Positions 17,229-39,000 of a stretch of 64,000 bases of DNA are shown one piece after another. Below the pieces are notes generated by a model. That model was not told the DNA's origin. It ran no database searches and saw only the letters and a program-made list of their open reading frames with translations. How positions within the stretch are numbered: position 1 is the first letter of the stretch; every line of letters starts with the position of its first letter. The translations under genes and the position numbers were made by a program. The DNA is taken from the NCBI GenBank assembly GCA_963921795.1, contig OY997649.1:60508372-60572371 (forward strand), given 5' to 3'. The DNA is from Nannobrachium achirus (lineage: Eukaryota; Chordata; Actinopteri; Myctophiformes; Myctophidae).

Positions 17229-18660
17229 TATACTAGTGTTGTTGCTGCTCTTATACCACCATTATTACTGGGGTTGGTGGGGGCCAGAGAGTAGCCCCCC
17301 CCCCGGGCCGCAAATGGCCCGCGGGCCGCCTATTGGGGAACCCTGAAGTAAGACCTGGCACTGAACAGGGCTCTCCTGGGGTCCAGACAAAGAGCCCTCG
17401 TTGTCCCAAAAGGCCGGTTTGAAGTCGATCGTTCTTGACCTACCATGCCGCCACTGTAGCTACTAGGATATTTAAAACCAAATAGCAATTTCAATAAACT
17501 AATAGATTAATATGACTTTTTACATGACTTAAATACCCTCTCTTCGGAGATTCGAATAAAATATATTCACGGTTTATATCGGAAGATAAGTTAGTTTGTC
17601 CATTAGCAGATTTTTTTTTCTTTTCTTTACAGGCAGTAACTACATGATTTCCTATACAGCACTTTGTTCACATGTTCCGCCGGCCTGCTAGGATAGCTGA
17701 CGTGGTCAGAACTAGTAATAGCTGACGTGGTCAGAACTAGGCGGCAGAGCGTCACAGAGTGTTTCTTTCCCGTCCTGACAGTAGATGCACACCTCCGCCT
17801 TAACGCATCACATAAAAGCTCAATTCATCCTGCAACGATCCAGATGAATTAATTCATTCGGAATAACATTTCACACAAAGCCAGCGTCGACCTCCCCGTC
17901 TAGAGGAAGGTAATGGAGTAAAAGGCAAGTTTTCAGAGCGTTCTCCACAAAGGGAAGCAGTTAGGTGAGGAACCCGGGGGAGATTAAGACAAGCTTGACA
18001 CCCGCTGGCAAGTTCTGCAACTGTGAGACTTGGTTACTCATGTTTTAGAATGTTTGATTCAAGCCAAAGCACAGTTAGAGAGCGACGGTGCACAGGAATT
18101 GAACTTTCTTTTCTTTACAGTGCTGCTGGCACAAGCGTCTCTCATTTGGTATCACAAGACTTGACTTAACCTCGTAAATTCACAACCTAGGGATGCAATT
18201 AGGACCAAAACCCACCGTAAGAAGGGGAGGAGTGGTTGGTGGGATAGACTGGGTGGGGGTCATGGTACTGCACCATGTCACAGTTCCACAACTTAAGCCC
18301 CCCCAAAAGATCAATGATGAGCCTCAATGCCGCTCCAAAACGCAGTGCAAAAAGAACGGACACTCGGGGTGACAGACAGTGTCAAGGAAGGACCGGTGGA
18401 GATCATCTCCTGTGAATTCGAAAATAAATATGCTTCATCTGTACACACAGTATACACTGTTGTTCAAATGACGCACTGGCACATTGCAGTTACAATTTTT
18501 GTGAAGATAAAGAAATAAAGAAAGAAAGAAAAAAAAATATATAATAATAAAAGAAGGTTGAGTGAGGCGTCTCAGAGTGGAGGTGAAGTGGGGCTGGGGA
18601 GAGGAGGTTATGGAGTAAGGGACAGAGATTGGACATATCGTTAAAGCAGTTAGCAAGTGT

Positions 18661-18747
18661 TCCTAGCCGCTCAGAGGGTCCTCGCGGTAATGGATAGCAT
18701 AACTTCCTAGCCGCTCAGCGGGTCCTCGCGGTAATGGATAGCATAAC
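18661..18747 (-). repeat. 44-bp tandem duplication over the hectd4 stop codon
   Basis: The block encoding the last residues (HYREDPLSG and stop) occurs twice in tandem, 18,661-18,704 and 18,705-18,748, with one mismatch near the stop. The inner copy (18,705 upward) ends the reading frame. The outer copy lies in the 3' UTR. Confidence 0.9.
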
Positions 18748-18843
18748 GCAGTTTCTCCAGCATCACGTCCAAGGAGGAGTACTGGGGCAGCTTCACCATG
18801 AACATGCAGGTCTCCACGCGGATGTAGCGGGAGTCCGGCGAAC
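18707..18843 (-). CDS. hectd4: hectd4 last coding exon (catalytic Cys)
   Basis: 137 nt to TAG (18,707-18,709). Acceptor ACCTCCAG in the minus sense. It encodes SPDSRYIRVETCMFMVKLPQ and the terminal LRYAIHYREDPLSG. The T-C-M motif aligns with the universal HECT thioester cysteine position (TCF/LP..YSS). Confidence 0.95.
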
Positions 18844-21800
18844 CTGGAGGACACAGAAACATGCACAACATGTCATTGCATGAGTACAAAGAAAAGAAAT
18901 CTTCTGCTCCTCTCAACAACCCATTAAGACAGGGATTTTCAAAGTGGGTGACGGGGATAGATTTTGTGGAGGTAATTTTGTATTTCTTGAGGACTTTGAG
19001 GGCCGTATTGAGATGGTCGAGGTTGCCCCTGTGTGCCCTAGAAGAAGACCTGAGGCCGATTCTACAAATGCCTTCTAAATCAGTGGTTATCTACTACAAA
19101 AATAGCAGATAAAAAAAAAGAAAGAAAAGAAAAGCTATCCACGGGTTTCCAACGCCCCATAGTGCATTGCGCAGACGCTGTACAGAGCTTCCGGCGCCGC
19201 AGCCGAGTGTGATTTACAAGCTCACAACGGGCTGCATCTGCGATGCGACGTGAGCTTGTATGAATGAATGAATGAATAATTTTATTTTCGTGTCTGGCTG
19301 CCTTTCGCAGCCCATCCCTTACGGGATTATTCAGACACAATTACATAACATTTTCTTTTTCACATACATTTTTTTTTTTTTCTTTTCCTTTTCCCAGTGC
19401 CAACAAGCTGACACAAAAACAAATAAACAAAATAAAGTAATACTGCATAATTAAGATCAAGAGTACATCAATTGTTGTTCTGAACGAGAGTGGAGGGCAA
19501 GAGAGAGAGAGAGAGAGAGAGGCACAAAGACAGAATGAACCAGAAACCAGGTTTAACCAGTATGTCTGCTGTTAAACCGGAAGTGTGGTCCAAATAATCT
19601 CCAGTAAACTCCCGCGGAAACAGGTGGATACAAGCTGTGAGCTTGTAGGGTGTAGGGTTTAAGTGGTTAAAAGACAGTTCTAAAATAATAGTTTAAACAA
19701 AAGGATACTATCATCGCTGACCATCCCAGTTCTATTCCTGCTTTCACTCCGTTATGAAATATCCCATCACTGCCAAGATTCACCAGTAGTATTGTGAACT
19801 GTCACTGACTCCCTGCGGGTGTGGCGTTCCAGATGTGGGTGAGTCAGCAAAATTATGTTGACAACACATCTGACTGATGCAATATCGGCCATAACAGCTA
19901 CTGTATCTACAGGAACCGACACAGAGATACAGTATTATGTCCTTCTTCCGCTTTATTTTGAGAACTATGCACAACGCGACCGGTGATTTCCCGGTGAATC
20001 TAAGCGCAACGGTGGGGGCTTGGGAGTGTGGGATGGGGAACACGAACATGCACCACTGACTGAGAATGAGAGAGGCACTCTTGCCGATTTAGTAAGAGAC
20101 TCGTCGCCAATTGCAAGATATTTAAAAGTTATTTGGGGCCATGATGATAACCTTTTCTTCCCACAACCAGACTAAGGATTTATATTAGAAAATAGGAATT
20201 AAATTCCAAAAAGGTAGCACATCCCCAATGTTTAAATCAGGAGGACAAAGTACTCACATTTCCACTTATTTATTGGCACACACCAAAAAGGAACGCTTAC
20301 GCGTTTCGGCTAAGAGCCTTCGTCAGAGCATGCTCTGACGAAACGCGTAAGCGTTCCTTTTTGGTGTGTGCCAATAAATAAGTGGAAATGTGAGTACTTT
20401 GTCCTCCTGATTTAAACATTGGGGATGTGCTACCTTTTTGGAATTTAATTCCTATTTTTTATGTAAATTTGACTTTAGGTCTAGCACTCCACTGAGAAAA
20501 CCATTGCTGATGCGCACCTTCTTTTTCTTATATAAGGATTTATATTGTCTGTGTTATTGTTTACAACCACAATTATTCACGTGTGGCGAGATCGCGGTTC
20601 ACTAGTTTTAGTAAGCTATAGTGTAGGCTTAGAAGCCTTTTCAGAAGTTAATTTAATGTTTTCCATTTAATGTTTTCCTTTATCCTCATCTAATCTTGCG
20701 CTAATGCACGCAACTGTTTTTGCCATGTTTTAAGGCCGTGTAGGCTTTTCAGAAGTTGATTTAATGTTTTCAATTTAATGATTTCCTTTATTGTCATCTT
20801 GCGCTAATGCACGCAACTGTTTTCGTCAGGTTTTAAGGTCTTATTTTAGTTGTTTCTCATAAGCTGGCAACCCTCCTTGCCCATCGGCCCCCACCTTTGC
20901 GCACAGGTTCACCGGGAAATACACGGTCGCACGCACAACACGTAAAATGATACACTGCAAACGTACTTGTGAACCTGTAGTGTGAATGTGTAGCTGATAA
21001 TCAGGATGGTCATGTCCTTTTAACACATCCTGCTGCTGGCTAAATAATATACATTTTGTTTCAAATATCTATATTGTGAATCACAGGATAAAGACATACA
21101 ATAACGATTCAAACACTTATGAAGTGCTTCCCTATTTTCCTTTTCTCCAAAAACAAACAAAAATAAACAGGTACAGTGAAATGAACACAAAGACAAACTC
21201 TACATATGAATTATATAATTTTGCAGCTTTAATCTGATAAGGTGTATCTGAACGCATCTCTACCGTGACTGATTCCTGCATGATTACATAACAAAAACCT
21301 AATCTGCATTCACTACTTTTCCAAGGCCATTTTAACAATTTCGCCATTGTTCATGCGTGGAAACTGCATGAAAATTTCCAGACTTTCAAGGATGCGTATG
21401 CAACAAGTGCGATGCGAGATAAGCTCATCGTGCTCAGGTGATAAAAACTGGTTAACAGGGTCGACCTCTTATCTCAAGCAGTTATGAAGCCTGTCCCTGT
21501 TAGTCTTGAGGGAGACATACTGTAGTAGTTTACGCTAGTGCACTGTAGGCTGATAACACAGCAGCACGTATCACGGTTGCATTCTCCGTTCATGCCTCCT
21601 GTTCCTATCCACAAAACCCACTCTATATCTCGCCATAAAACACTCATTTAGGTTCAGATAATGCCCAGTAAGGCAGGCAGGCATGATAATCACTATCTCA
21701 GTCTCTGGCACACAGTGGCACAGTCTCTGCACCATAAGACGAATGTACAATCAGAGCTCAATATTCAATAACTGCCTGTCTGAGGGAATAAACTCTTGTC

Positions 21801-22243
21801 ATGTGCACGGCCGTTACTACACGACGAAATCAAGAGACTACAAATCAAACATCCCGTCGCTGATGTATACAGTAGGTGTATAGAATACTGAAGTATATAT
21901 AGATGCACGTACCGCAAATTCTATAACCCCTCACAAAATAAAAATAATAATAAATAAAATACAATATGAACATGCTCCCATGGATTAACGCAAAATTAAA
22001 TCTCACGTCAATAAAAGGGATTTGGTACGCCCGACATCACTGTGATGGCCATATATGGAGATCCCTGATGTCCACATCACTGTGACATCACTGTGACTCT
22101 GTGCCACACTGGCCAGATGGCCCAAGACATGGTGCGACCTCGCCATTTGGTTGTGTTTCGCCCTTAGGCGTCTTACTGGTAAATTAAGGTTACAATATGC
22201 ATAAAATAATTGAATTTGAGATTAAATGTGAACATCGCACCCG

Positions 22244-22280
<37 letters not shown>

Positions 22281-22487
22281 TTTGCAATTGCTACTTTGTG
22301 GGGACATTACACATAGTCTACTATCTTTGTGGGGACATTCCATTCATTTTTAACCCTAACCCTAACCCTTAACCTAACCCCTAAACACCTTGTGGGGACA
22401 TATTAATTTGTCCCCACTTGGTTTTTTCCTCCGATTGTACTATCATTGTGGGGACATGAGGTCCCCACAAAGTAGCAATTCCCTGTC

Positions 22488-22522
<35 letters not shown>

Positions 22523-22532
22523 ACGCACACGC

Positions 22533-22572
<40 letters not shown>

Positions 22573-25500
22573 AGACTTGGAAAGTCCTTCGTGCCGGTTG
22601 CTCTCAAGCAATACAACGAGACTCATAGCGGAAGCTTGCCAAGGCCTAATAGGATAACCTAGGACAACTTTTACCTTGCACTACTGGAACAAAAAGTTGT
22701 ACTGACTCTGACCACTAACATACTTTTCCCTGAGAGGGTTGCTGTGGCGTCTTGCTGTGGCTCCCTTTATTGCTTAAAAAAGAGGGAACAAATATATATA
22801 TATATAAACAGCAGATCTACAAGCACACAACGCCTTGCATCGCGAGGCGTTGTGTGCTTGTAGATCTGCTGTTTTCACTAGTTTTGTGCGATGGTCTTGT
22901 ATGATGAAGCAGGGCAAAAGACGTACACGTTTGAAACCTGGAGATACGAGGTTTCTGCCCGACAGTGACGATATTTTAGTGATTATGTTGCGAGGAAAAT
23001 GTTGAGATAATAGCTATTTTGGTTAGAACTGACTGAAAATAACATTGCACTTCAAGTTTAAAATGATACTAAATATTTTTTCAAGTGTCCAAATGAATTC
23101 CAAATATTATCAAATGATCTCGCGGCACCCCTGGACTGCCGTCGCGGCACCCCAGGGTGCCCCGTCACCCACTTTGAAAACCCCTGATCTACACACACAG
23201 GCCTATGTGGCCTCTTACCCGCGGCTCCGTCGGGCGGGGCGATCTTCATGGGGTAGGGGGGGACGTGGGCGGTGTCTTACCTGCGGCTCCGTCAGGAGGG
23301 GCGATCTTCATGGGGTAGGGGGGCACGTGGGCGGTGTCGGGCCCGCCGTCCTTGCAGGGGCAGGTGAAGGGGATGCGCTCCTGGTTGCAGGCGAACTTGA
23401 TGAACTTGCAGAGCTCCTCCTGGGTGAACATCTCCAGGGCGCTCCAGAAGAACTCGATGTGCTGGTCCGTCTCCATCAGGCCCACCTGGTACATGGTGTG
23501 AGCCTGTCGGGAGGAGGGCGCCAAAGAGAGCACACAACACACCGGGGGTTTACGCTGGGTTCAACCCATTTAAATGCATTAAACGCGGGAACGCATTATT
23601 ACTTTTTTTATTATAAAAAAATAGCAGATAGACAAACTCACAGCGCGCCACCGAGTGCCGTGCTGCGAGCTTGTAGATCTGCTATTTTTGAAAAATATTG
23701 AAAGGTCTTTGAATATTTTTAACCCGATTCTATAAGTGGTTTTAATAATATCTTTGACCCGATTCTATAAGCTCGCGGGCGGGCGGCCGAGCTTCTAGTT
23801 TCTTTAACCCATGAAACACATTTGAACTTGTGTATTCATTAAACATCTAACATATAATTAGAGAGAGAGGTCAGTCAGTCAGTCACCTAATTTTGCTGTT
23901 AAATTATTTGTATCCATCATAAATATACACTCCTCCATGGGTTGCTCCTTACATTATGATGCTCCCACATATTCTCACGCACGCACCATGCAGTTACAGT
24001 TACTTTCCCCAAAACCCACACTCTGCACATATTTTGCAGCACATATATTCGAACGGGTAAGGTCTAGTTAATATGGTTTACCTTGAGGAACTCCAGGTTG
24101 ATGTAAGGTAAGCCGCAGGTGCGCAGCTCCACCTCCAGGGGGCTGAGCATGGTGAGCAGCTGCAGGGGGATGATGGAGCCCAGGCCGGCGCGCACCGCCG
24201 TCATGCACTCCACGTTCTGCAGCTCCCGAAGACGCAGCCCGCGCACCGCCCGCGCATACACATCCTTATTCTCCCAGCTGACACACACGCACGCAACGCA
24301 CGCACGCACCCACACACACACACACACACACACAGTTCAGACAAAGGTGAAAATGCCATAAAGCATGTATACAAAATCAAAATTTCATGTTCACAAAGTG
24401 CAATGGAAGAAGCACCATGAAAACCCTGAAAAATATACTTTATTATTTAATTTTTTTACCAGACGTAATATTTTGAGTCTTTTTGCCATTTCCCGTATAT
24501 TTTTGATGGACAGGGCGACAGTGGCTCAGGGGTAGAGCAGCCGGATGTCAACCGGGAGGTTCCCAGTTCGATCCCGGGGTCCCCCAGAGTTTGTGTTGAA
24601 GTGTCCTTGAGCAACACTCTGAACCCTCTGCTCTAGTGCTCTACGTGCAACTCTGTTGCACTTAGAACGGCAGACTCACTCCTTAGCTTCCGCCGTGGCC
24701 TGTAGACTCACCTCTTCAGACTCCACCTTAGCCCATAGCTCTTAACACTTATGGTGCCGTTGACATTCCTCACCGTCTTTTAAAGGGTTAATATCATGGT
24801 GCCGTTGACAGCGCTCACCGTCAATCTTACTGTATTTACAGTAAAAGTATTATTACTTACTATACGGCGCTCCGGTCCAGCCCACATCGGTAATGTCCGC
24901 GATTTGTTTACAACGCGCGTTGGGCGTGCACACGAAGTGAAGATCCTCCATAGCAAATCCATTGAGAGACCCATAAAGAGACTTCATTTACTCAAAAAGA
25001 GACATTTTGATCGAAAGGGTGGCATGTTTACAGTACAAACAGCACTCGGCTATGTTACTATGTTACTATGTTACTCGGCCATGTTACTTTTCTGGGCCCA
25101 CACTGTCATGTGACTAGATGACCTAAACGTTGAAGTCAAGTGATAATCCATCTGCGCAAAAACAACCCCGCCCGGCCCTACGGAGGAAACGGCGCGGCAC
25201 CAAGGCACCAAGCATCCCTTCAAAGTAAGAGGCAGTAGAAGTGTTAACGTAGCACTCGCCTATACCCTCAATGACCATACATGTTTTTATCTGTTCTTTC
25301 TGGTTCCTATGACGTTTTTTATTGAATAGGTGCTTGGCCTTGGCCTACCTATGTTCTTCTTAGATTATAATTGCTGTGCATTTGATGTATTGATGTTGAT
25401 ATCTTACTTATTGTAAGTCGCTAAGAGCGTCTGCTAAATGCCTACTGTAAATTGTAACCCCTAATTGCTCCAATGAGTACCGTAGGTTGGTGCCTTGCAT

Positions 25501-28500
25501 GGTTTCCTACCAGATCATCATATCGGATGCTTTCTTTTTCTCCTTTTTTCCCTTTCTCCTCTTTGTTACCAATTTGAACTGTGTGGTGTTATGATGTTTC
25601 ACATGCTCCGTCTCACAATAATCTGCTTTTAGTTATATTTTGTTTGACCCTACTACTGTGTTTTATTTTGTATTGTTGTTGTTGTTTGTATGTCATTGTG
25701 GGGGCAGGGAGGGTGTGTGGGTCATCGTCTTACTGATGTAACTGTCACCGATATCAAAATGATAATTGCTTTACTTGATGTCGACTGATTAACCCATTTA
25801 GGCCCGAACTCGCAATATGTTATGCTTTAAATATAAAAAAATAGCAGATATACAAGCTCACAGCGCGGCACCGAGTGCCGCGCTGCGAGCTTGTAGATCT
25901 GCTATTTTTGAGAAATCATGAAAATTAGAATTTTGACCCGATTCTATAAGTGTCTTTTGAATCCTTCTAAGATTTTTGGAAAAAAACTATGTTTCTATGT
26001 CAGCAATCTGGCCAGCCATCGTCAAAGAAAAGGTCCTTTTCACTTAACTGGAGCTCAGTTAGTCTGTTCTTGAGAGACTACCATGTCAGTGGTTCTCAAT
26101 CCTTTTCATGTGAAGGACCCCCAACATGATATTTATTTGGCCACGGACCCCCATCTCAAAATATTTAGTTCCAGGGACCACACAGAAGCAAAATTTTGAG
26201 TTACAACCGTTCGCTTTGAAAATACATATATTCAAAGATTTGCACACATTTTCATGACTTTTTCAAAAATAGCAGATCTACAAGCTCACAGCGGCACTCG
26301 GTGCCGCGCTGTGAGCTTGTATATCTGCTATTTTTCACTGGTTAAAGCATTCAATAAAAAAAAACATTGAACGTAGCATACCTGACGCTGAGACTGCGGC
26401 CTCGCTGACACAGCTCCACGTCCTCCCCCGTCATGGTGAAGTAGGTGAAGGTGCAGCAGGGCCTGCTAGGGGATTCTGGGCTTTCTCCTGAGTGGTGCTG
26501 AGAGCTGATCTCTGCACACAGAGCCTCCAGCTCCGCCTCGTCCACCACCTGGACGGTCACACACACGGTATATTGTTGTTAAAACAATCCAAAAAAGCAA
26601 GCCAAAACTTTAAATCAGAGGAGGACAAAGTATCCACATTTCCACTTTTTTATTGGCACACACCAACAAAGAACGCTTACAGTGTTGTCGGCTATGAGCC
26701 TTCATCTGAAGGCTCATAAATCATCCGAAACTGATTTAAAGTTTTGGATGTGCTACCTTTTTGGAATTTTGAATTCCTACTTTTTATGTATACTGAGAAA
26801 CCCCAACGCTGGCTGATGCGCAACCTCTTTTCCTTATTTAGTATATCGTTGTTGGCGGGTGGAAACCTTGTATGTCCAAAACTGTTTGTTTTGTATTTAT
26901 CATTTAAAAAAAATATATATATATATATCTTTTTTATTGTGAAAATAGCTGATCTACAAGCAGATCTGCTATTTTCACTAGTTTTGTGCGACAGTCTTGT
27001 ATGATGAAGCAGGGCTTTACGGAAAAACATACAAATGTGAAACTTGGAGATATGAGGTTTCTGCCCGACAGTGACAACTACTGTATATAAGCTGTACACC
27101 TGATAACAGTGGTGTGAAATATTCTGCTATTGCTGACACTATATAAGCTGTACAGCTCATACCAGAGGTGTGGAATGACATTATTAATTAGGATGTGTAT
27201 AGTGCAATGGTTCCCAAAGCTTTTTGCGTCAAGGACCCCCAAAATAGACACATATTTTAGCCCACGGACCCCCATAAGAGAAGATGTTTTTTTCGGCTAT
27301 AGCAGTGATACTCATTTCAAGGACCCCTGGTTTGATATGCATTAGGCCACGGACCCCCATTTGATACCAAGTTAATCTCCGGAGCCCAATCTACAGTTTG
27401 TAGTATAATCCAGTATAATCAGTGTTCATTTAAATCAGAGAGTGTACAAGTGGAACCAAATGGACCACCCATTTATACCCTCTCTTTGTTACAGACACAT
27501 ACGGGTCAATTTGGTTCCCAACTATTAACCCATTTAGAACGGGTACACATCATTATTTTATGCTTTAACTATTGAAAAATAGCAGATATACAAGCTCACA
27601 GCGCGGCACCGAGTGCCGCGCTGCGAGCTTGTAGATCTGCTATTTTTGAAAAATCGTGAAAATTAGAATTTTGACACGATTCTATAAGTGTCTTTTGAAG
27701 TTTAAAAAAAAAACCTATGTTTCTATGTCAGCAATCTGGCCAGCCATCGTCAAAGAAAAGGTCCTTTTCAATTAACCGGAGCTCAGTTAGTCTGTTCTTG
27801 AGAGACTACTATGTCAGTGGTTCTCAAACCTTTTCATGTGAAGGACCCCCAAAATGATGATGATTTATTTGGCCACGGACCCCCATCTCAAAATATTTAG
27901 TTCCAGGGAACCCCCAGAAGCAAAGGGTACGCTATGGGACGTCACTTCTTCTTCTCTTACGTTCTCAAACTTCTTGACGTAGTTGTAGGTGAGCAGGTCG
28001 GCCTCCTGCAGGTCCATGTCGGGGTCCAGGGGCTGGCCCACCAGGCCCTTCCAGAAGGAGCCCAGGAGGTCCAGGGGCAGCGGCACGTCGGCCCGGATGG
28101 CGATGCCCAGCAGCTGGCCCAAGAAGTGCAGCAGCTGCTCCTCCGTGTAGCTGATGGGACACGGAGTCAGGATGTATTTACCCTGTGGGGCGGGGGGAAA
28201 ACAAACACGTTACCACCGTGGGCACGGCGTCAGGATGTATTTACCCTGTGGGGGGGAAAACAAACACGTTACCACTGTGCTTCTTAACTCATTGATTGCC
28301 AAGGCCCGAGTTTCCCAAGTTATTACAGTAGTCCCAGGCTGCCACAGCCCGAGTTTCCTGAGTTGGCAGCCATTTTGAAAAAAAAAGAAAGAAAAAAAAA
28401 ACATTTTTTTTTTCTAAAATGTTTTTTATAAAAGAAATTCCAAAAATGCCTAAAATGTATTAGGCATGATCACAATCGCGAAATTGCATGTTTAGCCCCA

Positions 28501-31500
28501 TAACAAACACATCTTTCAAAATGGCAAAATGTTTGTTTTGTCTGACTTTGAAGGCTTGTATCTCATGAATGCCTGAACGGATTTCCAAGCGGATTTTTTT
28601 GTTTGAAAGCTGTTAAAAAGTACTACACATATGGTGCATGATCTAGGCATGGGCGTGCACGATCCGTGCACTAAAAATTGATCCGTGCACTAGAAATTTA
28701 GGAAGGTGGCAGTGTTTGTTTTGTCTGACTTTGAAGGCTTCTATCTCATGAATGCCTGAACGGATTTCCAAGCGGATTTTTTTGTTTGAAAGCTGTTAAA
28801 AAGTACTACACATATGGTGCATGATCTAGGCATGGGCGTGCACGATCCGTGCACTAAAAATTGATCTGTGCACTAGAAATTTAAGAACGTGGCAGTCTGG
28901 AACTTGGCGGCCATTTCAATGAGTTAAAACCCATTTATTTTATGCTTTAACTAATTTTGACCCAACTTTGACCCGAAGTGTCTACTACGTTTTTTTTTTT
29001 CTTTTTTAAACACACGTTTCTACGTCAGTGGTTCTCAAACTCTTTCATGTCAAGGACCGCGTCTCAAAATATTTTGTATCAGGGACCCCCCCAGAAGCAA
29101 ATATTTTAGTTACAAATGTTCACTTTAAAAAAAATTGATATTCAAAGATTTGCAGAAATGGTCACAATTTTTCAAAAATATCAGATCTACAAGCTCGCAG
29201 CGCGGCACTCGGTGCCGCACAAATACTGACACAAGCTGAGAACATGTGATTGCGTTTCATGCCGCTAAGGATTAACAAAATAAGTCCCTGTTAACATATC
29301 GTCGTTGTCGGGTGGAAACCTCGTATCTCCAAGTTTCAAATTTGTATGTTCTTTCGCAAAGTAAAGTCCTGCTTCATCGTACAAGACCGTCGCACAAAAG
29401 TAGTGAAAACAGCAGATCTACAAGCACATCACGCCTCGCGGTTTTGGACATACAAGGTTTCCACCCGACAACGACGATAATGGTGTCATTATCACCAACC
29501 AGTAGGGGAGATTTATGGAATATTTATGGAATGTGGATGGTTTTCACTGGCGTTAAGTGATGGAACAGATACGGAACCGCCTCTTCTCCCAGAAGAGGAG
29601 TTCACTGAAGCAGTGCCTAGCAGCCTGACAGCTGTTTCTCAGCAGTTACTGGCCCAACAACCCCACTGCTGCTGCTGCACTGTTAGCCAACTTGGCTTTT
29701 CCATGCTGCCTGGAACATTTTAACTTAAAACCCATTCAGAACGGGTACACTATATTGTGTATCATTATGTTATGCTTTAACTATTGAAAAATAACAGATC
29801 TACAAGCTCACAGCGCGGCTGCGAGCTTGTAGATCTGCTATTTTTGAAAAATCGTGAAAATTTGAATTTTGACCCGATTCTATAAGTGTCTTTTGAATCC
29901 TTCTAAGATTTTTTTGAAAAACCTATGTTTCTATGTCAGCAATCTGGCCAGCCATCGTCAAAGAAATGGAGCTCAGTTAGTCTGTTCTTGAGAGACTACT
30001 ATGTCAGTGGTTCTCAAACCTTTTCATGTGAAGGACCCCCAAAATGAAGTATTTGGCCACGGACCCTCATCTCAAAATATTTAGTTCAGGGACCACCACC
30101 CAGAAGCAAAATTTGAGTTACAAACGTTCGCTTTGAAAATACATATATTCAAAGATTTACACACATTTTCACGACTTTTTCAAAAATAGCAGATCTACAA
30201 GCTCACAGCGCGGCACTCGGTGCCGCGCTGTGAGCTTGTATCTGCTATTTTTCACTGGTTAAAGCATTCAATAGTTCTAGGCCCTAAATGGGTTAACAAA
30301 CTTAACATCAATTGTTTGAATCCCATAATCCCAACAGAGCTCAGCAGCAGTGCGTCATTTAAAGTTTGAATCAACGTCATAACGTACTTATAAATAACAA
30401 CATAACAAGCAGCAGCATCAGCTGGGGTGATTACAGCAACCGGGCAGGAATGGAGCACATTCATTCACTGCTTGCTGTGAATTTGGTGGTTCACGGTTTG
30501 TCACTCTATCATAGTGACATACTGTACTTACAGAGTGGAATCACCCACATTGGATAAGCCGTCTTTGTGGCAAGACTAAATCCCACTGGTCTCAAATGTA
30601 TGTGTTCTGAGACAAATATGTCTATCTGAAATGTGTAATAGCCTGACTGGGATGAATGCATATCAAATCTAAAATAAATGCTACCCTAAAAAACATGGAT
30701 CTGTCCCATTTCCCATATTCCCTCCTGATTGGCTACCACTGCCTTCTAAAGTTTGTGTATGCGACCTGATGGTCACTTATCTCCCGATTAGGAAGTCTTA
30801 CTGGTTTTATTTGTATGTTTATTTGGAAGGGACAGCACAGAAGAGAAAAAAACAACAGTAAAAAAAGGTCTACTTTTGACGCTCAAGGAAAAAATTAAAT
30901 GAAACGTTTTTAGCCTATCTAAAAATGTTTGTTTGATTGTCCATGATCCATCCTTTTAGTTGGACCTTAAAAGATGTAAAAAAGGACGGACACTCTCTTA
31001 TGTTAGTGGGTAGAAGGATTGCTCCAAATTGTGCTTCCTTGAACTGAAAAGGAATTCTGCGCAAAGGCTGAGCGTCCAGACTGCAGCTCACACACATTAT
31101 CAATACAGTGCTGTATATAAAACACACAGTGGATGTACAGTCTTCTACATCTTGTTGTGCAAACAGATCCCAGTGGGCTCAAAACACTCCTGGAATTGAG
31201 TGGAAGCCCCTCGGGCTTTGTGTTCCACACACAGGAACTTGTTTTGGAGTGTTTACGATTTCCAATACATTTACTTCTTCTCCACTACATCTCGGATCAT
31301 AATATGGTACTTTTACATTTAGCTACTTTATAGATTTTGCTTATTATCACAAAACATACAGTACATTAACAACTTCAGCCCTATATACATTTCGGCCATG
31401 TGAAAATAGCCGATCTACAAGCTCACAATGCATATATATTGTTTTATTACATTTGTACTTGTGACTTAATGTAAAACTGCTCATTGATCCTAAATGTTTC

Positions 31501-33069: not shown

Positions 33070-36000
33070 TTTATTTGTTAACATAGTATTTCTACAGTAC
33101 ATGGCAGTATCTTGATACTTTTACTTAAAGAGGTGGTGCCATAGTTTTGTACTTTTTCTGTTTTTCATGTGTCTAGGAGGTTGAAAGTACTTCATTAGAC
33201 CCCCTGATGTGTTTTTTTTGAAAAATGATGTATTCTCTTAGTATTTGTTTGTTTTCTCTTGGAGGCTGCCACCTTGTGGCCAAAAGTGTCAGTTAAAAAA
33301 CACAGATACTGTGACACCCTTAGTATCAACTCCTCCCCAATTGCCATTCACCCAACACTGTGGGGTGTGGCTATACCAGCTGGGTCACCACCCACCATGC
33401 CATCCATGCATACTTAATGAACTGGGGGTGTGGCCACATAAAAACCCAATTTTAACTCTTTCTGTATACTTTTTTGGAAAAAATGTTCCTCCTAGTATAA
33501 TCATAATACATGATAATCATGTTTTAGAGGGGGGGGGGGGGGGGGGTCATGGCACCACCTCTTTAAGTCAAAAACGTGAGTACTTTTTCTGACCATTAGA
33601 CACTAGGGCTCTCGTGGTTAAATAAATGAATAAATGCGGACCTCCTACGATCTCCAGAGGGTCCAGGGTGATCTCCGGGGCTGCGTGGTCGGCCGTCCGC
33701 TGCACAGTGGCGTTCAGCACTCGGTTCATCACCGTCACCTTGGTGTCGTAGTAGACCAGGCCTGGAAACACACACACACACACACATCACAGTCACCTTG
33801 GTGTCGTAGTAGACCAGGCCTGGAAACACACACACACACACACATCACAGTCACCTTGGTGTCGTAGTAGACCAGGCCTGGGAACAAGCATGGCAGCAGA
33901 CAGGGGCGTCACAAGGGGGGGGGGGACTGAGTTACTAGGGCCCAAGGTGGAGGGGACTTAATTATTTTATACTTTAGCTATTGAAAAATCGCAGATATAT
34001 AAGCTCACAGCGCGGCACCAAGTGCACAACCACCCACCTGACCTAAATACATTTGTTTTACTGCAAAGCTGCACGGAAAGCTGGATTGGACCTCACTGTT
34101 TTCTTTGTCGTAAGCAAGATTGATTGATTTAATAGAAATGTGTTCTGTTATATTTTGTGTCAAATGATTGATCCCTGGCACAAAATATTTTGAGAAGGGG
34201 GTCTGTGGCCGAATACGTTTACATTTTGGGGGTCCTTGACATGAGAAAGTTTGAGCACTGCTGATATTTAGCAACATAAGCTTTTCAGAAAACTGTTAGA
34301 ATTTAGAATTTATTATAGATTCGGCCTCAGGCCTTAATGGGTTAAAACATTAAAAGTAAAATGAAAATTAAGTGGGATACAGGCTGATTGCACATTCATT
34401 CACCCTGTCGAGTCATGTTCATACAGTATCTCACGGATTGCAGCTTTAAGCTTGGCTTCGGTGCCTTGTGAGATTTCTTCTACTGTACTGTAGATGTTGC
34501 CATTTTCAAATCGGGGCACATTATCCCTCTGACCTCTCTACTGTAGATGTGTGCTGCTGAGACCGTGTGGAGGATGTTTTCCCCGCTCACCTTTAGCCTC
34601 GCACAGCAGCGCTGCGATGCTGTTCTGATAGGTGTGTGTCTGCTCACCTTTAGCCTCACACAGCAGCGCTGCGATGCTGTTCTGATAGGTGTGTGTCTGC
34701 TCACCTTTAGCCTCACACAGCAGCGCTGCGATGCTGTTCTGATAGGTGTGTGTCCGCTCACCTTTAGCCTCACACAGCAGCGCTGCGATGCTGTTCTGAT
34801 AGGTGTGTGTCTGCTCACCTTTAGCCTCACACAGCAGCGCTGCGATGCTGTTCTGATAGGTGTGTGTCTGCTCACCTTTGGCCTCACACAGCAGCGCTGC
34901 GATGCTGTTCTGATAGGTGTGTGTCTGCTCACCTTTAGCCTCACACAGCAGCGCTGCGATGCTGTTCTGATAGGTGTGTGTCTGCTCACCTTTAGCCTCA
35001 CACAGCAGCGCTGCGATGCTGTTCTGATAGGTGTGTGTCTGCTCACCTTTAGCCTCACACAGCAGCGCTGCGATGCTGTTCTGATAGGTGTGTGTCCGCT
35101 CACCTTTAGCCTCACACAGCAGCGCTGCGATGCTGTTCTGATAGGTGTGTGTCTGCTCACCTTTAGCCTCACACAGCAGCGCTGCGATGCTGTTCTGATA
35201 GGTGTGTGTCTGCTCACCTTTAGCCTCGCACAGCAGCGCTGCGATGCTGTTCTGATAGGTGTGTGTCTGCTCACCTTTGGCCTCACACAGCAGCGCTGCG
35301 ATGCTGTTCTGATAGGTGTGTGTCTGCTCACCTTTAGCCTCGCACAGCAGCGCTGCGATGCTGTTCTGATAGGTGTGTGTCTGCTCACCTTTGGCCTCAC
35401 ACAGCAGCGCTGCGATGCTGTTCTGATAGGTGTGTGTCTGCTCACCTTTGGCCTCACACAGCAGCGCTGCGATGCTGTTCTGATAGGTGTGTGTCTGCCT
35501 GAGCTCCACCAGCGGAAGGAAGAAGCTCTCCAGGGTGTTGTTGAGAGACTGCAGCAGGGCGAAGCGAAGACGCAGGCTCTCCACAGGCACGTCTATGAAG
35601 AGACACCACCACCACCACCACAAACATAAATCACTCTGTGTAAACAAGTGTACAGTAGGGCATTAACGAAAAAGTCGACAAGTCAACTGAGTCGACTTCA
35701 TTACACAAGGTGACTCCCACCAGAGAAAGTTGAAAGTCGAAGTTGAAAAAAAATAAAAAAAAATCCTTTGTATTTTATTCTATCATTATTTTTGCTCCAT
35801 GTGTGCGTACAGCATTCAAACAGTAGGATTGCTTATTATCAAGGACGGAATGATCCAATATTACAGTGCTACACTACATTTGGTATAACATGGTTCTATC
35901 TTTTAGGCTTTGTGAACAAAAGTTACACAGAGCTTTTCATTTTCGATCCGATTACCGATCTGATACAGATACCGATCCGATATAGCACATATTTTATATA

Positions 36001-39000
36001 TTTATATATGAAATATGATATACTGTATAAATTATAAGTACAATAAAATAAATGCACATATTTATGATCGGTCATTTTCGGTGCGATCCGATCCAATCTA
36101 CGTTTTTTTTTGGCTGATATGGGGCCGATATCCGATATGAACATCGGATCGGTGGCATCCCTACATTTAATTACTTTATACTTTCAAAAAAATATTAATA
36201 GCGTAGTGGATCTTGATCTGCTATTTGTACCATTTTCTTTTTTATTTTAAAAACACATCAACATTTTTAACATGGTAACGATTAAGCCGATTATGCCAAA
36301 AGAGTAATTATCTCAGGGTATTTGCGATTAGGCGATTTTGTAATAATTGCGAGACGAGAGGCCCTGGAGGGGCAGTGAGTGATTTGCTGCTTACTGAGGA
36401 GCGAGGCCACGCGGGGGTCCGCGGCGTCGCTGGGGTCCAGGTAGACCTCGTGGGGGTGGAGCCTGGCCGGCGTGATGGCCAGGTGACGACACAGCCTGTT
36501 GATGTACTGCACCAGCGCCACGTCCATCTCCAAGCTCCACTTCCTGCAGGCCTTCTGGGCGTGGCGCGTGTCTATGCAGGTACACCTGGAGCACAGGTAG
36601 ATAGAGACAGGTTTCCCACCCATTTTTACCAATTCATTTCCAAAACTTTTCCAAAACTTTTCCAGAATATTGAACCCAATTTCCAGGACTATATATCAAT
36701 AATTCAGCTCAATAACAGGTCACTTACTCCCTATGCACAATGCCCAAAGACAGGTAGTATATGCCAGTGGTTCTCAACCTTTTCAGGCCGTGACCCCGAA
36801 ATAATCATGTTTTAACTGGGAACCCCCCACCCTGACGAGCACTAAGAGTTGAGGAATTTTGTATAACACGGGTTCTATTGTGAAAATAGCAGATCTACAT
36901 GCTCACAAAATGACCCCCGAAATAATCATGTTTTAACTGGGGACCCCCCACCCTGACGAGCACTAAGAGTTGAGGAATTTTGTATAACACGGTTCTATTG
37001 TGAAAATAGCAGATCTACATGCTCACAACGCCTCGCAACGCGAGGCGCTGTGAGCATGTAGATCGGCTATTTTCACAATTTCTGCCTCTAATATTTGAAA
37101 TTTTTTGTCAAATATTTGTTCAATTTGTCATTTCAGAGGTATTAACAAAATCAATAACCAAAGACAATGCATATCTATTTTTTTCCAGGAACTTCCAGGA
37201 CCCTTGATCAATTCCAAAACTTTTCCAGTACTGGAAAAATATTAATTTCAAAATATTTCCAGGAATTTCATGACCGTGGGAACCCTGTAGAGAGTGTCTA
37301 TGCAGGTACACCTGGAGCACAGGGAGATAGAGAGTGTCTATGCAGGTACACCTGGACTACAGGTAGATAGAGAGTGTCTATGCAGGAACACAGGTAGATA
37401 GAGAGTGTCTATGGAGGTACACCTGGAGCACAGGGAGATAGAGAGTGTCTATGCAGGAACACAGGTAGATAGAGAGTGTCTATGGAGGTACACCTGGAGC
37501 ACAGGGAGATAGAGAGTGTCTATGCAGGTACACCTGGAGCACAGGTAGATTATAGGACATTTCAGCAGGGGTGTTGCACCAAATTCTGGGCACTGTGTGC
37601 TTTAACTGTTGAGAAATAGCAGATATACAAGCTCGCAGCGCTTGTAGATTTGCAATTTTTGTAAAATCGTGAAATTTGCCGTCACCTCACCCACTTTGAA
37701 AACCCATGGCAGGATTGGTGGATTGACCCAACCCTAACCTCTATGGAAGTGCTGCCACTCAGACAATCAGAAGTCAATGTCTGAATGGCAGCATGTCGGA
37801 ATGGAGAGCGGTGCCCACTAGGGGGTTATGAGCTTCATATGACACTTTGACCAGACTATAAGTGGGCCATTTTCCATGATTGGTCACGTTTCACTTCACT
37901 ATGAAACTCTCCTTAGTTCAGTGTTTCTCAACCACTGTGCCTGGGGACCTTTGGTGTGCCCCTGAGAAGGGTCAAATGTGCCCCTTGAAACTGCTTGAAG
38001 CCAGTATTGTATTTATCATTTTTAAAATGATTTAAACTAGTGAAAACAGACGATCTACAAGCACACAACGCCTCGCACGTGTGCTTGTAGATCTGCTGTT
38101 TTCACTACTTTTGTGCGACAGCCTTGTATGATGAAGCAGGGCTTTACTTTGCGAAGAATCGTACAAATTTGAAACTTGGAGATACAAGGTTTCTTCCCGA
38201 CAGTGATGATATTTACACCCCCGTATTATCTTGGTGTGCCCATGGATTCTTGGGACATGAAAAGTGTGCCCATGCAGAAAAAAGGTCTTAGTTGACTGGG
38301 ATCCACCAGGGCTCTGTACTAGTATGAATGGATCCAAATGTCATCAGGCAGTGACATCACAACATTGTCATCACAGCCAATGTACTTGTCTTAAAGGTAA
38401 ACGTCCAACAAACCAAATGTCATTCAACAACTATTCAGACTAAATAAACTTTCCTTTAAGAACCTGTACATTTTCTTGCACTGATTCACGGTGGTGCTGC
38501 TGTGTGAAATGTTTCACTGGACAATAGATCTGAAAGGAGGGCCTCAGACTTGCTACCATGCTGCTGTGGCAGTCAGACACAAGCTGTACTCATTTGGAGG
38601 GACCAACAACTATCTGAACAAAGTCCACATCTTCAACACAGTGTCTTTGCGTTGGAGGACGTTGCCCCCTGTGACAAATGGTAGAGGACAAGGTCCCTTT
38701 GAGGTTCCCTCTGGGGGCTGGGGCCACACAGCTGCGCTGGTAGAAGAAATTGTCTTCATCTGGGGAGGAGGGCCTACTTACTGCAATGTGCTTTATGCCT
38801 TTGATGTTGACACCCACAGCTGGTTCAAACCCAATGTCTCTGGGTCTATTCCAGAAGCAAAGATCTACCACTCAGCCTGTGTCCTGGAGAAGGTCATGTA
38901 TGTGTATGGGGGAACCACCCAGCTGACTAGATGGACTAATGACATGTACAAGTTGGACACCAGCACAATGCTCTGGTCTTTAATTAACACCAGAGGAACT

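Follow-up and report, generated by a model that had tools for sequence, protein, structure and literature searches.

We report that a coding exon of a HECT ubiquitin ligase gene in the fish Nannobrachium achirus ends in a minisatellite in which the exon-intron boundary is itself the repeated unit, so that 16 identical 5' splice sites follow one another at 57-bp intervals, all of them in phase with the next exon. This array is one of about ten that lie on predicted exon edges of the same gene. We read it as a frame-neutral exon-edge minisatellite that is spliced mostly at its first donor, with leakage to later ones, a reading to which we give about an even chance. The copied exon edge has the look of an accident that is tolerated, not of a mechanism built in for choosing protein length.

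A tandem array of identical splice donors at the end of a coding exon

The window analyzed here is a 64,000-nt stretch of contig OY997649.1 (C12 of an assembly with 564 contigs and 1.66 Gb). A first-pass annotation had described in it 16 tandem copies of a unit made of an exon's terminal 52 nt and GTGAG, and this array is real (Table 1): Tandem Repeats Finder returns a period of 57, 16.0 copies, 98% matches and 0% indels. When the units were cut out and translated, each was found, as claimed, to end in AAAG followed by GTGAGC, with the identical donor AAAG/GTGAGC (the slash marking the splice site) in 16/16 copies and the first intronic bases at 35,445, 35,388 ... 34,590. Every one of the 16 units thus holds an exon end, a splice site and an intron start, the combination that defines an exon-edge minisatellite, and none has a stop codon in the coding frame (0/16). 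The unit translates as QTHTYQNSIAALLCEAKGE in 14/16 copies, the first Q being changed to R in the other 2/16. Variation is confined to 3/57 columns (CAG or CGG, TGT or TGC, GCC or GCT), two of the changes being silent and one being Q to R. An assembly-wide search with a 39-nt core of the unit, matched exactly, gave at least 14 hits, each inside the array, whose copy number is that of one assembly. Higher-order blocks were considered as a sign of multi-unit expansion and rejected: a 4-unit block does repeat, yet it also did so in 855/5000 shuffles.

Joining the predicted exons gives a 553-aa model with a Pfam HECT match at residues 215-547 (E 1.2e-44), and the gene encodes a HECT ubiquitin ligase with a C-terminal HECT domain. 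Its nearest solved relative among those listed is HECTD3 (E 1.1e-20); the gene itself we take to be HECTD4. By manual count the array junction falls at about residue 112 of the joined model. The insertion site, placed by the first-pass annotation just before the HECT domain, is indeed upstream of the domain but lies about 80-100 residues away from it rather than directly before it. Elsewhere in the assembly, dozens of clustered HECT-domain matches at 66.56-67.24 Mb of contig C5 mark a local expansion of a HECT gene family.

The exon prediction sets the 3' end of the host exon at the last donor of the array, use of which would make the exon 1,002 nt long. Joined to the next two predicted exons, the donors give an open frame in 16/16 products, which upholds the earlier statement that all of them join the next coding exon in phase and without a stop; the capacity for up to 285 extra residues stands with it, every donor being in frame (15 x 19 = 285). 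A product without exon 35,592-35,446 likewise keeps an open frame across both of the following predicted exons. Both the count of edges inside duplications and the acceptor frame test took the host exon to end at 35,449, where 35,446 is correct with donor 1; the frame is unaffected by these three bases.

We draw no inference on how a longer isoform would fold, because the beta-solenoid that AlphaFold 2 returned for the array (without alignment, mean pLDDT 85.6) is of a known artefact type and was discarded: confident AlphaFold 2 beta-solenoids of perfect repeats have been reported as artefactual (PMC11795689). The host exon alone (47 residues) is predicted as one helix, the best model reaching a pLDDT of 89.9 and the other four 71-75. 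Among the hits of Pfam and NCBIfam searches with the array, no single stretch passed.

Table 1. Exons, repeat arrays and duplications of the gene in the window and in the adjoining 100 kb (flank, own coordinates)
Feature	Position	Strand	Basis
57-bp x 16 array, each unit the exon's last 52 nt + GTGAG	window 34,585-35,498	minus	Tandem Repeats Finder
Host exon when spliced with donor 1, 147 nt	window 35,446-35,592	minus	
Next coding exon, 120 nt	window 33,642-33,761	minus	
Preceding coding exon (predicted)	window 36,395-36,585	minus	
Exons encoding most of the HECT domain	window 18,707-28,182	minus	Pfam HECT on joined model
58-bp x 2.8 array over acceptor of exon 33,761-33,642	window 33,727-33,886	minus	Tandem Repeats Finder
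Array of 31/40/71-bp units repeating exon 36,585's acceptor edge	window 37,288-37,550	minus	
62-bp tandem duplication (x 2) spanning the donor of exon 23,503-23,281	window 23,213-23,338	minus	
~57-bp duplication over acceptor of exon 28,182-27,961	window 28,160-28,275	minus	
Stop codon covered by a 44-bp duplication, x 2 (coding end rather than splice edge)	window 18,660-18,747	minus	
38-bp array, 51 donors CAG/GTAAC, at predicted exon 90,787-90,585	flank 88,680-90,597		
26-bp array over predicted acceptor 113,077	flank 113,065-113,248		
44-bp duplication over predicted acceptor 126,952	flank 126,942-127,035		
47/64-bp array at predicted acceptor 130,310	flank 130,301-131,035		
53-bp array at predicted acceptor 132,451	flank 132,416-132,741		
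31 bp x 6 array abutting predicted acceptor 93,169	flank 93,170-93,359		
26 bp x 18 array abutting predicted acceptor 78,209	flank 78,212-78,721		

Arrays on exon edges recur along the gene

The sibling arrays are spread over the window and the adjoining 100 kb, here called the flank, in which predicted exons place more of the gene. Two of them multiply a donor. The 38-bp array, 55 kb from the 57-bp array, carries 51 donors (the first part was read directly and the 51 obtained by count), and the coding frame is open at donor 1 only (1/51). The 62-bp duplication is open from donor 1 alone as well, its second donor leading to stops. The units of the 38-bp array that were read also contain a TTCAG acceptor-like site.

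On the acceptor side, the 58-bp array presents three AG acceptors of similar score (3.0, 2.4, 2.4), with exon starts at 33,877, 33,819 and 33,761, and the frame is kept only by the last of these, 33,761. In the same array, the joining of the first acceptor to a weak TGT/GTGTGT donor was predicted once as a 36-nt in-frame microexon. The array with 31/40/71-bp units sits 700 bp upstream of the acceptor edge that it repeats. In the flank, the 26-bp unit over acceptor 113,077 consists of 13 exon and 13 intron bases, while the two abutting arrays (at 93,169 and 78,209) stop exactly at the acceptor or 3 nt short of it, only the intron end being multiplied. Unit lengths are divisible by three in 2/10 of the gene's edge arrays and not in the other 8/10, which gives no sign that frame governed how such arrays arose or grew. 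Introns of the window also hold two-copy tandem duplications of 121 bp (36,794-37,028) and 183 bp (28,530-28,896), with copies 97-98% alike.

That edge arrays recur in this gene is a fact; that they are over-represented there is likely but not settled, the apparent preference being method-dependent because one of the tests below, per base in the flank, shows no excess. All exons in these counts are predictions, 24/30 being kept in the window and 47/58 in the flank after those unlike the gene had been dropped. When arrays are counted singly (Tandem Repeats Finder arrays of period >=20, with 8 low-complexity rows dropped, against random placement), 4/8 in the window touch an edge where 0.71 are expected (P 0.004), one of the four lying over the stop codon and not a splice edge. 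The flank, examined after the idea of edge arrays had arisen, gives 5/23 where 0.98 are expected (P 0.0014). A tolerance of 3 nt leaves the window at 4/8 (P 0.0054) and brings the flank to 7/23, a count matched in 0/5000 placements; automatic exon calls put 7 of the gene's 31 arrays on an edge (1.42 expected). A hand-made, post hoc list of arrays gives 6/12 (P 5e-5).

Counting positions instead, we find 6/48 predicted edges of the window inside short tandem duplications, versus a share of 5.4% among the 37,308 positions in introns (P 0.028 by rotation) and 0/2,128 positions inside window exons. The per-base test, which takes the edges of exons scoring over 12, finds 5/38 edges duplicated in the window versus 6.4% of bases. 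In the flank it finds 5/80 edges versus 7.1% of bases and hence no excess, two of these five edges coming from an exon later dropped and two further edge arrays going uncounted because they are on exons below the score limit. In control sequence (100 kb and 12 HECT loci), 0/23 arrays touch an edge where 0.26 are expected, from a small set with 24 predicted exons in which two of the four long regions yielded no exon, so that it does not bear on whether edge arrays are special to this gene.

Repeats and duplications known from other splice junctions

Several published cases share features with the 57-bp array. In human genes within segmental duplications, minisatellites sit at exon-intron boundaries, and their repeats are either kept or spliced out in alternative transcripts (PMC2812944). 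Those repeats, like ours, sit on an exon-intron boundary; they differ in belonging to recent primate paralogues, in having on average 30-bp units in four copies, and in being described as forming new introns, whereas the units of the 57-bp array provide identical in-frame donors. In PRDM7, an 89-nt duplicon with splice signals reaches 8 repeats in the chimpanzee gene, and its retention is reported from RT-PCR (PMC2082429). This too is a tandem unit bearing splice signals, but it lies inside an exon, involves a GC-AG intron, and shifts the frame when retained. The potato RdRp gene gained an intron by a tandem duplication that took in an intron-exon boundary and put the splice signals there to renewed use (PMC4974935); that was a single duplication making a new intron, while the 57-bp array has 16 copies and no good internal acceptor.

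A single step of the array's growth has a counterpart in MSH6 c.3936_4001+8dup, a 74-bp tandem duplication of 66 exon and 8 intron bases described in a human family (PMC9818763), which likewise copies an exon end, an intron start and a donor. The duplicated allele uses the downstream donor or skips the exon, the normal transcript being absent; in one carrier's blood the downstream donor prevailed 7:1 over skipping, and some other samples had skipping only. It differs from the 57-bp array in having two copies, a length of 74 bp (2 mod 3) and a pathogenic effect. The MIR137HG VNTR was dropped as a precedent, its alternative donors being in pre-miR sequence.

Searches of open-licence papers, judged mainly by titles and abstract openings, turned up no coding exon with many identical donors in an array, and those on hectd4, fish and tandem repeats, judged in the same way, turned up none either. 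The first-pass annotation knew of no description of such a splice-selected protein ladder. That claim of novelty is weaker than it was put, since boundary repeats with alternative splicing (PMC2812944) and a tandem unit with splice signals, that of PRDM7 (PMC2082429), are both published.

Choice among sixteen equal donors

The donor of the array pairs with U1 at -9.6 kcal/mol, more strongly than 10/14 of the other predicted donors of the gene (-4.2 to -11.2 kcal/mol, n=14), and because its energy is within their range it can work. The weakest U1 match among the 14 tested is GAG/GTCCGC, the donor of exon 33,761-33,642. RNA structure was rejected as a selector among the donors, the costs of opening them being too alike to name a winner: with 35-nt flanks, donors 1-15 cost 4.3-5.3 kcal/mol and donor 16 costs 5.4, and with 60-nt flanks the figures are 6.2-7.9 and 5.4. 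Under the folding model with 60-nt flanks, the last donor would be at most slightly favoured.

The reading we favour would start from one tandem duplication across an exon-intron boundary of what is presumably a HECTD4-like gene, followed by growth into a minisatellite. Splicing in this gene would usually pick whichever site makes the exon shortest, the first donor or the last acceptor, and the bulk of the 57-bp array would then be intron. The argument comes from the siblings and presupposes a working gene whose exons behave alike. Judged by its open exons the gene seems functional, and splicing in the sibling donor arrays should therefore take the donor nearest the exon body, the 38-bp and 62-bp duplications both being productive only from there; the 57-bp array, if it behaves as they do, should be spliced mainly at donor 1. 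The array would persist because any slip to a later donor, or skipping of the exon, leaves the frame open. Since every outcome does so, mistakes cost little, and a fraction of transcripts should carry additional 19-residue units as unregulated leakage.

The identity and common frame of all 16 donors, and a U1 pairing better than that of 10/14 others in the gene, would equally suit an unregulated ladder in which several donors, or mainly late ones, are substantially used, the result being a mixture of proteins that carry between 0 and 15 additional 19-residue units or lack the exon. MSH6 speaks against donor 1 here: the layout of its duplication is alike and predicts use of a later donor, and the duplicated allele gave no normal transcript (PMC9818763). 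A preference for late donors would, however, wreck the protein at the 51-copy and 62-bp siblings, and the last donor of the 57-bp array would require the 1,002-nt exon. Because the MSH6 case contradicts the sibling analogy, we leave about a third of the probability to substantial later-donor use.

A different outcome, Rogers-type intron gain, in which the GT of one unit pairs with the AG of a later unit and whole units are removed, appears improbable. Excision by units would keep the frame since every unit has AAAG/GT, and PRDM7 and the potato RdRp gene offer precedents. The 9 AGs in and around one unit nevertheless score between -1.6 and -7.6, whereas 14 predicted acceptors of the gene reach 0.3 to 4.6, on an approximate matrix by which a few kept acceptors in the refined exon list go down to -0.4. 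On that matrix the unit contains no usable acceptor, and self-splicing of units is unlikely because the acceptors inside it are poor. In cDNA, Rogers-type excision and donor choice would look identical.

We think it similarly improbable that the copy number was inflated, or the array misjoined, in assembly. The window does contain further short two-copy repeats, but the three variable columns are spread among the units, the window is free of N, and four contigs among those listed span 58.8-66.6 Mb. Assemblies, moreover, collapse tandem copies more often than they invent them.

Frame neutrality and the case for a functional ladder

The first-pass annotation saw in the array the design of a splice-selected protein ladder. 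We simulated 22,000 donor-spanning duplications of random extent on 11/21 exons, those with a single open frame; 34% had a length that is a multiple of three, and 29% yielded a second donor that was both in frame and open. With a chance of about 0.29, the in-frame property of the array is not evidence of selection. Nor is the identity of its donors, which 3/57 variable columns make likely anyway (P 0.59 for no variation in the 9 donor columns), a degree of conservation that does not exceed expectation. The sibling edge arrays are mostly blind to frame, and two of them give protein from the first donor only. The idea of a design is thus left unsupported.

A functional ladder, with regulated donor choice and a repeat number that matters to the ligase, would accord with the frame neutrality of every outcome tested and with the silent changes in 2/3 variable columns, but we consider it very improbable in the face of the in-frame chance of 0.29, donor columns unvaried at P 0.59, the frame-blind siblings, and a solenoid model of a reported artefact type where the prediction for the exon by itself is a helix. 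That slips in the 57-bp array would be harmless is explained by frame neutrality, which does not show that they are put to use.

A natural experiment in splice-site choice

Taken together, the 16 and 51 identical donors at predicted coding exons of one gene form a natural experiment in spliceosomal choice between equal sites. Of the choices offered by the 51-copy array all but one break the frame, and those of the 16-copy array all preserve it; because the two differ in this cost, transcript reads alone would measure the default donor preference. A broader reading, in which some process in this fish repeatedly seeds minisatellites on the splice junctions of one large conserved gene, at donors as well as acceptors, and an in-frame unit turns one of them into a heritable, copy-number-variable isoform ladder through choice between identical donors, seems to us doubtful. 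If the recurrence of edge arrays holds genome-wide, it would point to a mutational bias at splice junctions or to selection that tolerates repeats hidden by splicing, and either of these, if true, would be a route for change in intron-exon borders and protein lengths.
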